A stretch of DNA of 10,578 bases from Candidatus Magasanikiibacteriota bacterium (lineage in GTDB: Bacteria; Patescibacteriota; Patescibacteriia; Magasanikbacterales; GWA2-37-8): positions 1 to 10,578 of the forward strand of contig JAPLWP010000046.1 of NCBI GenBank assembly GCA_026396535.1, in the 5' to 3' direction. A program made the position numbers and the translations under genes. The notes under the pieces are model-generated. The model was not told the DNA's origin. It ran no database searches and was given only the letters and a program-made list of their open reading frames with translations. Below are positions 1,329 to 8,478 of this stretch, piece by piece. Each line of letters opens with the position of its first letter. Positions within the stretch are counted from its first letter, which is position 1.

Positions 1329-1874
1329 TTATGGACTAATAGTGGAAGCTGTTTTTACATATTGGGCACTTACCCACCCCAACTGATCCGGACCTAAAAT
1401 TATCTGATACCAGCCATCTTGACGATCAGTGTATTTAAATTGCTCCCCAGCTAGTGCTTTACGAATAAGCTCTGATTTAGAAGATGAAGCCATGCGAATA
1501 TTTACATAACCCAAAGAAGTAGAGGCAACTTCTAGCATACCAGGACCAAGTGATTGTGTAGTAGGCGGAAGCACTGGCAAAGCTGGACTAGAAGTATTGA
1601 TAAGTAAAGTGCTAGAAGGCGTGCTAGTGGCTGATCCTTTTGGTCCAATAATAATCACCGAACTAGTAGATAGTGTACTGCTAGTCATAATAGGCTCTAC
1701 AACTACCGGAACTGCCGAAGATTTAACAGGAGCAGATTGTGAAGACGCTGATGAATTTGAACCAGCATCATTTTTGCTACTAAGACCGCCTACTAAACTA
1801 TATATAGGTAAAATTACAGCCAATGCTACGGCCACTACCCCAAGCCAAACTACCACCAACAACAATGGCTCCAA
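1329..1874 (-). CDS. C-terminal part of GspF fused to a bacterial SH3 domain (downstream of in-frame stops)
   Basis: The coordinates start at the first usable codon, a TTG at 1872-1874. Clear GspF/PilC homology extends upstream in the same frame to 2009 (IPTPIQSLISAGEKSGAL, then the EPLLL helix), where it meets two TAA codons. No ATG, GTG or TTG lies between 2009 and 1875, so the TTG is probably an internal Leu rather than a true start. From the TTG: residues 2-29 form the third GspF transmembrane helix (EPLLLVVVWLGV to LPIYSLVGGL). Residues about 30-110 are a low-complexity Ser/Thr/Pro/Ala linker. Residues about 112-174 resemble an SH3b domain (VNIRMASSSKSELIRKALAGE, then DGWYQI and LGWVSAQYV). 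Known GspF topology puts the C-terminus outside the cytoplasmic membrane, so the SH3 domain would face the cell wall, where such domains often bind peptidoglycan. It ends one base before the next pseudopilin start. An independent secreted SH3 protein is a less likely reading. Confidence 0.7.
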   Translation of the reverse strand: MEPLLLVVVWLGVVAVALAVILPIYSLVGGLSSKNDAGSNSSASSQSAPVKSSAVPVVVEPIMTSSTLSTSSVIIIGPKGSATSTPSSTLLINTSSPALPVLPPTTQSLGPGMLEVASTSLGYVNIRMASSSKSELIRKALAGEQFKYTDRQDGWYQIILGPDQLGWVSAQYVKTASTISP

Positions 1875-2000: not shown

Positions 2001-2027
2001 AATATATTTTTATATTTATTTATTACT
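2001..2027 (-). other. Double in-frame stop (TAA-ATA-TAA) inside the gspF reading frame
   Basis: On the minus strand the gspF frame reads Asn-Lys, TAA (2018-2016), ATA, TAA (2012-2010), then Lys-Tyr-Ile-Pro and normal GspF sequence in the same frame. The stretch is made only of A and T and contains three copies of AATA (2024-2013) and a run of five A (2011-2007). Removing one AATA unit and adding one A would give Ser-Asn-Lys-Tyr-Lys-Lys-Tyr-Ile-Pro and abolish both stops. Two slippage-type changes, biological or technical, are therefore enough to explain it. That repair is inference; the stops and the shared frame are read directly. Confidence 0.85.
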
Positions 2028-2894
2028 TTTAAAACTTTCTTCAAAAGATTTTCCTTCTTCTACTTGATCATGTAAATAGCCATAAATTTTCCCGTAAGAT
2101 CTCAAAGTACCAGAATCTTTGAGTGAGGACAGTGCTTGCAATACTGGCAAACCGGAATTGAGTAATGTGCCCATGATATATCCAAATCTAGCCAACTCCG
2201 CTTCGCGAATTAAATTTTTAATACCTGGGATTAAAAATAATAACCATTGGCCGATAAATTTTGTTTTGGAAAAAACAAATAAAAAATATAAAATTAAAAA
2301 CAACCCAACCAAAAATGAAGGTACTACTATCGCGCCATATTTAGCCAAAAAGGCACCGAAGCTCATTAACACTCTGGTAACTAAGGGAAGCTTCAAATTT
2401 AACTGACCAAATACACTAGCCAAACGCGGCAAAATAAACCAGGCAATACCAATACCCACTACCATTGCAATCGCCATCACAAATACCGGATACATCATGG
2501 CCGCACGAATTTTGGATTGGAACGATCTGGTCTTAGACTGTTGGGTCACCACCACACCCAAACTCTCGTGCAATCTACCGCTGTCTTCGCCAATTTTTAT
2601 TAAAGCAATAATATGGGGTGGTAGAATCCCAGTTTTACCTAAAGCATTTGATAGACTAAAACCAGAGCTAATATCCTCTACCAGACCATCTATAATATTG
2701 AGAAGTTTGGTCGATTTTACTTCGGATTTAATAGCTTCAAGCGATTCAATAATATCCATACCCGAAGCTAAAAGCATCGCCAAATTTTCAATAAAATATT
2801 CTTTTTCTTCATTAAAACCAAAACTAAAAGCTAGAATAGATGGCTTTTTAGCTTTTGGATCTTTTTGGTTATCTAAATTTTTATCCGAGCTCAT
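2016..2894 (-). CDS. gspF: GspF/PilC-family inner-membrane platform protein, N-terminal part
   Basis: This is the platform protein of type IV pili and type II secretion systems, which sits in the cytoplasmic membrane and couples the assembly ATPase to pilin insertion. The 292-residue open frame holds the first GspF domain (about residues 30-155, with LAMLLASGM and the IKIGEDSGRL motif at 99-108). Two membrane helices follow (about 131-158 and 188-208). The second GspF domain starts near residue 232 (AELARFGYIMGTLLNSGLPVL) but stops after SFEESFKSNK, before its own GE-SG motif and last helix. The missing part is encoded in the same frame beyond two TAA codons. Full-length relatives are about 400 residues, so this fragment alone lacks the third transmembrane helix. 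A polar, Lys-rich extension of about 20 residues precedes domain one. The ATG lies 12 bases after gspE with no clear Shine-Dalgarno. Without readthrough or a sequence error, the platform is likely incomplete. Confidence 0.9.
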   Translation of the reverse strand: MSSDKNLDNQKDPKAKKPSILAFSFGFNEEKEYFIENLAMLLASGMDIIESLEAIKSEVKSTKLLNIIDGLVEDISSGFSLSNALGKTGILPPHIIALIKIGEDSGRLHESLGVVVTQQSKTRSFQSKIRAAMMYPVFVMAIAMVVGIGIAWFILPRLASVFGQLNLKLPLVTRVLMSFGAFLAKYGAIVVPSFLVGLFLILYFLFVFSKTKFIGQWLLFLIPGIKNLIREAELARFGYIMGTLLNSGLPVLQALSSLKDSGTLRSYGKIYGYLHDQVEEGKSFEESFKSNK

Positions 2895-2906: not shown

Positions 2907-4232
2907 TTAAAATTTTGGTCCATCTTCAAATAATGTGACTGATCCTTGGGCGCGAGCAATTTTCCAAATTTGAGCAGTCGACGGATTTTTCAAAATTAAT
3001 TCTTCTAACTCCGGAGTGACTTCAATAAATTCATAGATAGCGGTGCGGCCTTTAAAGCCTGTGTGTCCGCAACTTTCACAACCCTTACCCTGATACAGTA
3101 CAATATGTTTACCGGTAAAATATTTAGAAGCGTCTTCAGAAATATTTTTCTTGATTTCTTCTTTGGAAGAATTCACACTATAGCGACATTTATCACAAAT
3201 TTTACGCACCAAACGCTGAGCAATAAGCACTTCAAGAGTGGAGGCCAATAAAAATGGTTCAATACCCATATCCAGCAAACGTGGCACAGCGGTCGCGGCA
3301 TCATTGGCATGAAAGGTAGACAATAATAAGTGGCCGGTCAAAGCAGCGTTCACAGCTGTCTCAGCGGTTTCTTTATCACGAATTTCACCTACCAAAATAA
3401 TATCCGGATCTTGGCGTACAATTGAGCGCAGACCTTTGGCAAAGGTGAGATTGGTCTGAGCATTTACCTGAATTTGGTTAATGCCAGGCATTTTATATTC
3501 TACCGGATCTTCGATAGTAGTAATATTTACATCCGGACTATTTAATAGTTTTAAAAGCGCATATAGAGAAGTGGTCTTACCAGAGCCGGTAGGACCGGTG
3601 ACCAAAATCATACCAAATGGTTTGTTGGAAGCAGTCAATAATAATTTTTGATCATGTTCAGACAAACCCAAATCCGCAAAAGAAAAACTACGAACATATT
3701 GCGACAATAAACGAATAACCACTTTTTCACCGTTTAAAGTAGGCAAAATGGAAATACGCATATCGAGCGATTTATCGCCTTTTACCTGACGGATCGCACC
3801 GTCTTGAGCGGAAAAATGTTCATCAATTGGCAACATCGCCTGCACTTTGATACGGTTCAAAATATTTCCATAATATTCTTTTGGTATACGACCCGCTTCT
3901 TGCATCACACCATCAATACGAAAACGAACAATCACTTCTTTGTCCTGGGGCTCGATATGAATATCAGAAGCGCGGTAAGCCGAAGCGTCATCTACAATCT
4001 GTTCAATAATTTCAGGCGCAATACGTTTTTGCTGTTTAATAATATCACTATTATCAGATTCAGCTATAGCTTGGCCAAGCAAGTCTTTATTGATGATTTC
4101 TTGAGATAATAAATAATCCAAAAATTTACCTTCCTCCCCTTTGGTGGCGGCTTCCGCTTTTTTCACATCATCATCCGTAATATAATTTCCTTGCAACAAA
4201 ACCTCTTTTATTTTTTTGTCTTCTATTTTCAT
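2907..4232 (-). CDS. gspE: Type IV pilus/type II secretion assembly ATPase (GspE/PilB family)
   Basis: This hexameric cytoplasmic ATPase powers pilin or pseudopilin insertion through the GspF platform. All core motifs are present: RASDIHIEP at residues 87-95, Walker A GPTGSGKT at 213-220, the Asp box TTIEDPVEY at 238-246, Walker B region DPDIILVGEIRD at 275-286 with catalytic Glu283, and the His box TGHLLLSTFHAND at 299-311. The zinc-binding cysteines are C346/C349 and C385/C388. At 441 residues it is short. The N-terminus (about 1-60) resembles only the first, helical half of the usual MshEN/GspE_N domain. The C-terminus ends at LFEDGPKF, roughly 15-20 residues before most relatives. It is probably PilB/GspE rather than PilT, because it has the zinc motif and a GspF partner next to it. 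It starts 6 bases after the response regulator stop, clearly within one operon. Confidence 0.95.
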   Translation of the reverse strand: MKIEDKKIKEVLLQGNYITDDDVKKAEAATKGEEGKFLDYLLSQEIINKDLLGQAIAESDNSDIIKQQKRIAPEIIEQIVDDASAYRASDIHIEPQDKEVIVRFRIDGVMQEAGRIPKEYYGNILNRIKVQAMLPIDEHFSAQDGAIRQVKGDKSLDMRISILPTLNGEKVVIRLLSQYVRSFSFADLGLSEHDQKLLLTASNKPFGMILVTGPTGSGKTTSLYALLKLLNSPDVNITTIEDPVEYKMPGINQIQVNAQTNLTFAKGLRSIVRQDPDIILVGEIRDKETAETAVNAALTGHLLLSTFHANDAATAVPRLLDMGIEPFLLASTLEVLIAQRLVRKICDKCRYSVNSSKEEIKKNISEDASKYFTGKHIVLYQGKGCESCGHTGFKGRTAIYEFIEVTPELEELILKNPSTAQIWKIARAQGSVTLFEDGPKF

Positions 4233-4674: not shown

Positions 4675-4711
4675 GAACAAACAAAAATCCCCTGAATTAT
4701 TCAGAGGATTT
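4675..4711 (-). terminator. Rho-independent terminator of leuS
   Basis: Read on the minus strand, AAATCCTCTGAA (4711-4700) pairs with TTCAGGGGATTT (4696-4685) to give a 12-bp stem with one U-G wobble and a 3-base loop. A U-rich tail (TTTTGTTTGTTC) follows. It begins 18 bases after the leuS stop and separates leuS from the next operon. Confidence 0.85.
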
Positions 4712-4728
4712 TAGATTTCACTAAATTT

Positions 4729-7143
4729 TTACAACACGATGCTTATTAGTTTGCCTTTGACGTAAATTACTTTCTTTGGCTGCGCGCCTTCGAGCCATTT
4801 TTGAATTTTTTCACTAGAAAGAGCCATCTTTTTGGCTTCTTCTTCGTTGATATCAGCTGAGACTACCAAAGTATCGCGCAATTTACCATTCACCTGCACT
4901 GCCAAAGTAATTTCTTCATCTTTGGCCAGCTCGGCATCGTATTTTGGCCAAGCGGATTCAAAGATACTTTCACTGTTACCCAATTCATTCCACAATTCTT
5001 CAGTCATATGTGGTGCAAATGGAGATAGTAGTTTGAGCAGTACACTAAAATCTTCTTTACTGATTGCCTCTACCTTACCCATTTCATTGGAAAGCTGCAT
5101 CATAGAAGAAATAGCGGTATTGAAACGCATAGCTTCAATATCTTCTGAAACTTTTTTAATAGTTTGATGAAGTTGAGCGGTTAATTTTTTGTCCATGGCA
5201 GCTGTTTCAGAAATTTTTTCATTTAGCGCCCACACTCTTTCCAAAAATCTACGTACACCAACCACACCTTTGGTACTCCAAGCACAAGGCTGGTCAAACG
5301 GACCCATAAACATTTCATATAGACGCATCGCATCCGCACCGTATTCTTCTACGACTTCGTCTGGATTTATCACATTGTTCCAGCGCTTACTCATCTTGCG
5401 ACCATCTTCAGCCAAAATCAGACCAACGTTTTGCAAACGAGTAAACGGCTCTTCATTGGCCACCGCGCCAATATCAAATAAAAATTTGTGCCAGAAACGA
5501 GCATAGATCAAATGGCGGGTAGCATGTTCAGCACCACCAACATAGAGATCAATCGGATTCCAATAATTTATTTTATTTTTATCCCAATCATAATTTCCCT
5601 CCGCGTCTTTTGGCATAGTGTAGGCCAAATAATACCAACAACTGCCGGCCCATTGTGGCATAGTATTGGTTTCACGTTTGGCTGGACCGCCACATTGCGG
5701 ACAGGCAGTATTTACCCAATCCGTAATCGTAGCTAGAGGTGATTCCCCAGTACCACTTGGTTCATAATTTTTTACTTTCGGCAATTCTAGCGGCAGCTGA
5801 TCTTCCGGCACCGCTACCCACCCATCTTTTTCACAATGGATCAAAGGCATCGGCTCGCCCCAGTAGCGCTGACGAGAAAATACCCAGTCGCGTAATTTAT
5901 ATTGTACTTTTTTTTCACCCAACCCTTTAGCTTCCAAATATTCAATCATTTTTATTTTTGCCTCTTTGGTTGGCAAGTTGTTTAGAAAATCACTATTCAC
6001 AGCACTTCCTTCACTAGTAAACGGTTTTTCATTCACATCATTATCACACGATACTACAGCCAAAATTGGTAAATTGTATTTTTTGGCAAATTCCCAATCA
6101 CGCTCATCGTGCCCCGGCACAGCCATAATAGCGCCGGTACCATATCCATACAAAACATAGTCCGCCACAAACACTGGCAATTCAGATCCGTTCAGTGGAT
6201 TAATAGCTTTTACACTTTTCAATTCCACGCCATTTTTTTCTTTTTGTAATTCAGTACGCTCTAGATCACTTTTACTTTTCGCTTGATCCAAATAATCTTG
6301 CACTTCTTTTTGGTTAGAAATTTTTTCCAAATTCTGTGCAACCAATGGATGCTCCGGAGCTACTACCATATAGGTAGCACCAAATAGCGTATCTGGACGA
6401 GTAGTAAAGATTTTTAAAATTTCTTCACTGTCTTTTATTTTAAAATCTACCAAAGCACCTTCACTTCGGCCAATCCAATCACTCTGCATTTTTTTAATAT
6501 GTTCCGGCCAGAGCGGCAATTTATCCAAACCATCCAATAATTTTTCAGCGTAATCGGTAATTTTCAAAACCCACTGACGCATTGGCTTGCGCTCAATTTC
6601 ACTACCGCAGCGTTCACAGCGACCATTGTCCAAATCTTCATTAGCCAATCCAGTCTGACAACTAGGACACCAGTTGATTGGCGCAAAAGATTCATAGGCC
6701 AAACCTTTTTTAAATAACTGCAAAAAAATCCACTGTGTCCATTTATAATATTTTGGATCAGTAGTATTCACTTCCCTATCCCAATCATAAGTGAAACCCA
6801 ACAATCCTAATTGCTTTTTAAAAGTCGCTACATTTTCCGCGGTGGCTTGCGCTGGATGAACTTTATTTTTTATCGCATAATTTTCAGCCGGCAAACCAAA
6901 AGCATCCCAACCCATTGGATGGAGCACATTGTAACCCTGCATCATTTTCATGCGACCTACAATATCGGTGGCGATATAGCCTTTTGGATGACCAACATGC
7001 AGGCCAGCACCGGACGGATACGGAAACATATCCAAAACATAATACTTTGGCTTTCCGGATTCTTCTTTGGTTTTATAAATTCCGGTCTTTTCCCAGGTTT
7101 TCTTCCATTTCTTCTCTACCTCTTTATGGTTGTATTGCTTCAT
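4729..7143 (-). CDS. leuS: Leucyl-tRNA synthetase
   Basis: This class Ia enzyme charges tRNA-Leu with leucine in the cytoplasm. At 804 residues it has the full set of landmarks: HIGH-type motif HVGH at 49-52, zinc cysteines C159/C162/C176/C179, the editing (CP1) domain with TTRPDTLFG at 247-255 and GTGAIMAVPGHDERD at 335-349 (Asp346 being the conserved editing Asp), and a second Cys pair at C481/C484. The AGSCWYY and DLYVGGAEHA core elements are present, as is the KMSKS-type loop, here KMSKR at 583-587. The leucine-specific insertion before the KMSKS loop, present in the E. coli enzyme, is absent; the size and layout match the Bacillus type. The anticodon-binding and C-terminal domains end in KVIYVKGKLISIVL. 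It appears to be transcribed alone, with its own terminator. No Shine-Dalgarno is seen before the ATG. Confidence 0.98.
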   Translation of the reverse strand: MKQYNHKEVEKKWKKTWEKTGIYKTKEESGKPKYYVLDMFPYPSGAGLHVGHPKGYIATDIVGRMKMMQGYNVLHPMGWDAFGLPAENYAIKNKVHPAQATAENVATFKKQLGLLGFTYDWDREVNTTDPKYYKWTQWIFLQLFKKGLAYESFAPINWCPSCQTGLANEDLDNGRCERCGSEIERKPMRQWVLKITDYAEKLLDGLDKLPLWPEHIKKMQSDWIGRSEGALVDFKIKDSEEILKIFTTRPDTLFGATYMVVAPEHPLVAQNLEKISNQKEVQDYLDQAKSKSDLERTELQKEKNGVELKSVKAINPLNGSELPVFVADYVLYGYGTGAIMAVPGHDERDWEFAKKYNLPILAVVSCDNDVNEKPFTSEGSAVNSDFLNNLPTKEAKIKMIEYLEAKGLGEKKVQYKLRDWVFSRQRYWGEPMPLIHCEKDGWVAVPEDQLPLELPKVKNYEPSGTGESPLATITDWVNTACPQCGGPAKRETNTMPQWAGSCWYYLAYTMPKDAEGNYDWDKNKINYWNPIDLYVGGAEHATRHLIYARFWHKFLFDIGAVANEEPFTRLQNVGLILAEDGRKMSKRWNNVINPDEVVEEYGADAMRLYEMFMGPFDQPCAWSTKGVVGVRRFLERVWALNEKISETAAMDKKLTAQLHQTIKKVSEDIEAMRFNTAISSMMQLSNEMGKVEAISKEDFSVLLKLLSPFAPHMTEELWNELGNSESIFESAWPKYDAELAKDEEITLAVQVNGKLRDTLVVSADINEEEAKKMALSSEKIQKWLEGAQPKKVIYVKGKLISIVL

Positions 7144-7609: not shown

Positions 7610-8477
7610 ATTTCTGACAATTTGGACAATAATGCGTCCCCCGTCCCGCGTGCTTTATTTTTAATATTATACTTTTACATTTTTTACACTTCTCACCATC
7701 ACGTCCATAGACTTTTAGAAAATTAATATGACTGCCGGTGCGCCCATCACTATCTACATAATTATTAAAAGTAGTGCCACGATTTTCTATGGAAACTTTT
7801 AATACTTGAGCCACCATTTCAAAAAGTTTTTTAAGTTCGGCTTGGGATAGATCCGAGGCTTTTCTCATTGGCAAAATTTTTGCCTCAAAACAAGCTTCGT
7901 CGGCATAGATATTACCGATACCGGAAATCAATTTTTGATTGAGCAATAGTGCTTTGACATTAGTCTGGCGCTTCTGAAATAATTTGGCAAAATCTTCAAA
8001 TATGTAGTCTGAAGTTAGCGGCTCTATGCCGAAATTATTTTTTACAATTTTTTCTTTCTCTTTTGTAGACACCAATTTTATATATCCAAATCGGCGCAGA
8101 TCATTAAAAAAGAGTTGCCCGCCGTCACTAAAATTAAAAATTACGCGCGTGAATTTATTTGGCACATTCGTATTCATAGCAGTCTGGCTATGTCCTCCAG
8201 CCAATACCCTATCTTTATTGCGATAAATCAGCTGGCCGGTCATTTTCAGATGCACCAGCATATATCCGTATTTACCAGACTTGTCCAAAGCAAACATGAG
8301 CAACTTGCCCCGACGCTCAATGTGACTAAAATTATTTCCAACCAAAACTTTCAAAAACTCCGCGCTTTTATTATGAACACTTTTTGTAGCCAAAATTTTT
8401 ATATCTTTAATTTTTTTGGTAGAAATCTTTTTTTCCAAATCACGACGAATAGTTTCTACCTCTGGCAACTCCGGCAT
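7608..8477 (-). CDS. mutM: Formamidopyrimidine-DNA glycosylase (Fpg/MutM)
   Basis: This bifunctional base-excision repair enzyme removes oxidised purines such as 8-oxoguanine and cleaves the abasic strand. The start is set at 8477 because the mature protein must begin Met-Pro-Glu-Leu-Pro-Glu: Pro2 is the catalytic nucleophile and Glu3 is also catalytic. A longer frame from 8510 would bury it behind 11 residues. Further landmarks in the 289-residue protein are Lys58 (RRGKLL), HLKMTG at 76-81, DLRRFGY, the helix-two-turn-helix with ISGIGNIYADEACF, and a C-terminal zinc finger with four Cys (CKKC and CPNC) around GRGTHYCP, whose Arg contacts DNA. Length and order match the family. The start lies one base after the gdhA stop, so the two genes are probably cotranscribed and coupled. 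Confidence 0.97.
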   Translation of the reverse strand: MPELPEVETIRRDLEKKISTKKIKDIKILATKSVHNKSAEFLKVLVGNNFSHIERRGKLLMFALDKSGKYGYMLVHLKMTGQLIYRNKDRVLAGGHSQTAMNTNVPNKFTRVIFNFSDGGQLFFNDLRRFGYIKLVSTKEKEKIVKNNFGIEPLTSDYIFEDFAKLFQKRQTNVKALLLNQKLISGIGNIYADEACFEAKILPMRKASDLSQAELKKLFEMVAQVLKVSIENRGTTFNNYVDSDGRTGSHINFLKVYGRDGEKCKKCKSIILKIKHAGRGTHYCPNCQK

Positions 8478-8478
8478 A

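Follow-up and report, generated by a model that had tools for sequence, protein, structure and literature searches.

Two in-frame TAA codons in a pilC–SH3 gene of a Candidatus Magasanikbacteria draft genome, probably a local fault of the contig

Results

The pilus locus and its interrupted gene

The stretch of DNA analysed here (the window) is the whole of contig C90 (10,578 bases), which belongs to a fragmented draft genome of Ca. Magasanikbacteria, here labelled G000 (870,480 bases in 165 contigs, 88% complete); Candidatus Magasanikbacteria are also the nearest named relatives of the window. The draft genomes G001, G003 and G004 were used for comparison. The gene order on the minus strand includes leuS, a response regulator, pilB/gspE, pilC/gspF and pilin-like genes (Table 1). 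pilC adjoins the gene for a PilB/GspE ATPase upstream (T2SSE match, E 1.5e-121) and pilin-like genes downstream (N_methyl match, E 3.3e-7; another, at E 4.9e-4, narrowly misses the cut-off).

Table 1. Features of the pilC locus and of the gaps found around it (window coordinates)
Feature	Position	Strand	Remarks
pilC/gspF before the first TAA (292 codons plus stop)	2016..2894	-	T2SSF PF00482, E 4.6e-31
First in-frame TAA	2016..2018	-	Column is K (10), R (3) or H (3) in 16 relatives
Second in-frame TAA	2010..2012	-	Column is K (12) or R (4) in 16 relatives
pilC/gspF after the stops, to its own stop codon	1329..2009	-	PF00482, E 1.9e-9; PF08239, E 5.3e-11
pilB/gspE ATPase, 441 aa	2907..4232	-	Lacks 89 codons near 4046-4051 and 20 near 2918-2919
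Site of missing deacetylase-like gene (307 aa in G004)	4685..4729	-	In G004, between leuS and the response regulator
Site of missing 272-aa inositol-phosphatase-family-like gene	8467..8478	-	In G004, about 787 further bases between gdh and mutM

Translation of 2894-1329 gives a PilC/GspF protein with stops at residues 293 and 295, so that the gene is not one uninterrupted coding frame; this bears out a first-pass annotation, made from the DNA letters alone, which had placed two TAA codons within a gspF frame. That annotation also held that homology resumes at once in the same frame, and it does: after the TAAs the T2SSF match picks up again at profile position 64, and the 16 relatives described below align on both sides. 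Two T2SSF stretches pass the cut-off, one with 88.3 bits and the other, which is read through both TAAs, with 79.1 bits. The window protein shares these two domains with the known inner-membrane platform proteins PilC and GspF (PF00482; solved relatives 3jc8 PilC, 2whn PilC and 2vma GspF), and a profile of the window protein plus 40 relatives matches 3jc8 PilC over positions 33-371 (E 2.8e-45). It differs from them in having two in-frame TAAs in the second domain and an SH3_3 tail behind a Ser/Thr-rich linker. The part of the gene after the stops encodes the rest of the second T2SSF domain, the last long helix, the linker and the C-terminal SH3_3 domain.

The SH3 domain (window 1329-1500), which was absent from the first-pass annotation, is common in this group: PF08239 accompanies PF00482 in 113 of the 120 PilC matches listed (952 in total, with candidates limited by length), making these PilC–SH3 fusions of Patescibacteria; some of the named matches among those listed come from Ca. 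Magasanikbacteria, Moranbacteria or Uhrbacteria.

Relatives carry an uninterrupted gene

We aligned 16 relatives, picked from the best 18 PilC matches and 65-87% identical. Each has one PilC–SH3 protein of 508-526 aa in a single frame that is gapless at the stop site and, unlike the window gene, carries no stop. A DNA alignment of the site with one relative and a codon-level comparison with four showed no length change, and the four same-genus draft genomes have sense codons at both stop columns. Judged on the alignment, the agreement of the 16 relatives on both sides of the stops is beyond chance. The stops are private to the window contig among the relatives examined, and no insertion or deletion is needed to account for them. 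The first-pass annotation had proposed that losing one AATA unit and gaining one A would restore the frame; such compensating length changes are unnecessary, and we rejected an indel origin because the site is gapless in both protein and DNA alignments.

A wider PilC-family search covered 95 genomes, including the window's own, and matched 83 of them. All 18 PilC matches in kin that were flagged for stops were re-read: 14 have no stop in the alignment, and the other four have one stop each (query positions 7, 372, 372 and 374), in no case within the conserved core. We therefore rejected the idea that the stop recurs in kin, and a stop conserved in relatives, as programmed readthrough would have it, was found neither among the 16 aligned nor among the 18 re-read sequences. 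Protein searches did not find an intact conspecific PilC: the best match was 86% identical over the whole protein and 85% over the first part. The part before the stops is 93% identical to its G004 counterpart. An exact search of viral contigs with the 39-base stretch of the stop site gave no match, which is uninformative.

Both parts of the gene are equally conserved, with no sign of decay. Compared with G004, the 291 codons preceding the stops have a dN/dS of 0.035 and the 76-codon core that follows has 0.027, similar to the neighbours pilB (0.022), cheY (0.024) and leuS (0.049), all of these values being rough since dS exceeds 1 in these comparisons. In a leave-one-out comparison, the window PilC departs from otherwise invariant columns at 0/159, 1/59 and 0/19 positions (1/237 outside the stops). 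The cause of the stops is either very recent or outside the cell.

Recoding and gene splitting

If both TAAs were read as amino acids, by readthrough or reassignment, full-length PilC would be made. The frame and its conservation do run on past the stops, and both columns are always basic (K, R or H) in the 16 relatives, which speaks for such decoding. TAA, however, is an ordinary stop in this genome: among 122 G000 genes aligned to the end of their G004 protein, 118 have a stop within 6 codons (at exactly the aligned codon in 106), and these stops are 95 TAA, 16 TAG and 7 TGA. TAA is not reduced in use as a stop, and by our reading the 149 + 38 G000 genes compared below contain no other clear in-frame TAA, one in a poor alignment being discounted. 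Readthrough would have to occur twice within three codons, the four same-genus genomes have sense codons here, and a tRNA with a UUA anticodon was not found among the 28 typed of 29 tRNA matches in G000, an incomplete set that is also without tRNA-Lys. According to the introduction of the Codetta paper (PMC8629427), all bacterial code changes then known reassign UGA; that paper gives UGA as Gly in Absconditabacteria/Gracilibacteria, whereas the window would involve TAA, in one gene. We regard recoding of the two codons as very improbable, and still less credence attaches to its narrowest form, in which this Magasanikbacteria strain would read two close UAA codons as basic residues at pilC only, by context-dependent recoding.

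The gene could instead have been split, yielding two polypeptides that reassemble or a separate membrane-anchored SH3 protein. In a model of the read-through protein (41 sequences; mean pLDDT 76, about 90 near the break), the break is predicted to fall between helices 284-290 and 300-312 of the second cytoplasmic domain, a position that might in principle be tolerable, although a split there would, on the same model, cut that domain in two. No relative examined has a split gene. The first-pass annotation doubted a separately translated second half on the ground that there is no start codon between 2009 and 1875, and we agree: the first ATG, GTG or TTG in frame past the second TAA is a TTG at 1874, 135 bases beyond the stops and just inside the last long helix, and no Shine-Dalgarno-like motif was seen ahead of it. 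TTG and GTG starts at 1865-1856 are preceded by GGAG, but their product would comprise only the end of the last helix and the tail. There is, then, no restart codon with a ribosome site soon after the stop, and we consider a gene split quite improbable. Both recoding and gene splitting are unlikely: TAA reassignment, a suppressor tRNA and a split are disfavoured by stop usage, by the lack of a matching tRNA in the incomplete set found, by the unsplit relatives examined and by the distance to a start codon.

Damage to the neighbouring genes

The first-pass annotation took the flanking pilus genes to be intact and argued from this against old decay. This is wrong for pilB, which lacks, both in frame, a block of 89 codons behind the N-terminal part and another of 20 ahead of the final three residues. 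Two whole genes present in G004 are missing from this stretch as well (Table 1); G003, too, has a deacetylase-like gene, of 308 aa, upstream of its own response regulator. The PilB of another assembly (P0191; 550 aa, in a cluster of 8 sequences) is full length and 99% identical over the aligned part. P0191 and the window protein show a small number of residue differences, so that its source may be a sister species.

Damage elsewhere in the draft genome

Comparison of G004 proteins with 284,291 bases of G000 gave 149 genes at ≥60% identity, a set from which pilC was left out because its G004 copy is cut by a contig end. A second batch covered 87,568 further G000 bases and 38 genes, both batches making up well under half of the genome. 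Several broken genes were found on contigs C6, C75, C160, C110, C63, C85 and C91. rpoC has 14 codons missing and a frame change, rpsB has 49 codons missing, tsf has a frameshift near its end, and in ileS a 10-codon deletion removes the YGADAMR stretch; each is the only copy (for ileS, the only full copy), and second copies of the four were not found in the G000 assembly. In addition, dnaA has lost 26 codons, a PcrA/UvrD-type helicase lacks 19 codons including DEFQD, recJ and a gene that we take to be secD-like are frameshifted, and a YebC-family gene is also damaged. A viable cell with all these genes broken is hard to imagine, and those in rpoC, rpsB, tsf and ileS are lesions that a living cell could hardly bear, as would be expected of an assembly or consensus error.

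At the DNA level, clean deletions numbered 16 in G000 versus 4 in G004 over 161,333 aligned bases, compared with 6 in G001 versus 5 in G004 over the 194,493 aligned bases of the control pair, although two of the 16 (997 and 185 bases) are better seen as G004 insertions. BLAST overlaps of 5-12 bases were present at 5 of the 16 G000 junctions, the rest showing 3 or fewer or a short gap, and no consistent direct repeat was seen.

The two G004 insertions are intron-like. The longer one (L067 1839-2837), missing from both G000 and G001, lies in what looks to us like a 16S rRNA gene; the shorter one (L159 18316-18499) sits within tRNA-Tyr, and G000 has this tRNA complete.

At the protein level, deletions of at least 8 residues affect 9 of 149 genes in G000, 5 of 156 in G001 and 1 of 154 in G004, and frame changes in the same gene sets number 3, 0 and 2, respectively; in these raw counts G000 stands out from the controls less clearly than in the essential genes. 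By our reading, the control deletions lie mostly in linkers or repeat-like stretches, whereas several in G000 lie in conserved cores. By our count, 11 of 17 gene-breaking G000 events are in frame (binomial P 0.008 against one third), a count that omits two 9-residue events in variable or repeat-like stretches and is subject to a detection that favours in-frame events. Such an excess could point to selection and hence to genuine deletions, but it may partly reflect detection.

Stops inside alignments numbered 10 in G000, 24 in G001 and 14 in G004, with one more in the 38-gene batch of G000. On reading the 11 from G000, we place 7 near an end, 2 as results of the tsf frameshift, 1 in a probably non-coding ORF and 1 in a poor alignment, so that by this reading none of the other 149 + 38 G000 genes has a clear substitution-type stop in its body. 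Most control stops, as we read them, lie close to an end or within short ORFs that may be non-coding.

By our reading, single substitution-type stops do occur in other same-genus drafts: one TAA in a G001 gene (L143), presumably UvrA-like, and one TAG in each of two G004 genes (L156 and L083), which we take to be RNase J-like and D-Ala-D-Ala carboxypeptidase-like. These are three genes in 156 + 154 comparisons, with one stop each, whereas the window pilC has a pair. Given these cases, one such gene per genome is unremarkable, whatever its cause.

Discussion

The first-pass annotation left four options open: assembly or consensus error, recent pseudogenisation, population polymorphism, and readthrough or recoding. 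It also suggested comparing the locus in relatives, and all 16 aligned here lack a stop at the site; of the four options, the last is disfavoured by the evidence above and the first is the best supported. We think it probable that the two TAAs are a local sequence fault of the window contig, introduced in sequencing, library preparation or assembly, and not new biology. The reasons are that the relatives examined are uninterrupted, that the site shows no length change, that only copies of essential genes are broken in the same draft, and that pilB is broken twice. In the living population, pilC–SH3 would then be one intact gene, and we infer that its two TAAs would arise from the same kind of unreliability as the other lesions of G000. 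The weak point is a mismatch in the class of error: the faults elsewhere are deletions and frameshifts, and the stops are a pair of substitutions. The failure to find a conspecific pilC for comparison weakens this reading further.

We rank second a genuine nonsense event of very recent date, which may have been a single local multi-base mutation and would make pilC either a newly formed pseudogene or polymorphic in the population, leaving the accessory pilus/secretion system unassembled in the sampled strain. The lack, by our reading, of clear substitution-type stops in the bodies of the other G000 genes compared speaks for it, as a pair of base errors would be atypical of G000, and so do the damage to pilB in the same operon and the in-frame excess among gene-breaking events. 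The same draft genome also has a second PilC without stops (G000:C88:10850-11857), so that loss of the first could be tolerated. Against it, rpoC, rpsB, tsf and ileS are broken as well with no second copy found, so that breakage in this draft implies no biology; pilC has accumulated no missense change; and another assembly contains a full-length PilB of 99% identity, though this may be from another species. On balance, a genuine mutation seems to us possible but doubtful, and a fault of the contig is the reading we favour.

The case serves mainly as a caution: with rpoC and rpsB interrupted as well, little can be concluded about the organism from a broken gene in this draft genome. Should the stops be real, they would point to an accessory pilus/secretion system recently lost by one strain, an ordinary event. 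The only important outcome, if true, would be recoding of UAA, and the evidence is against it.
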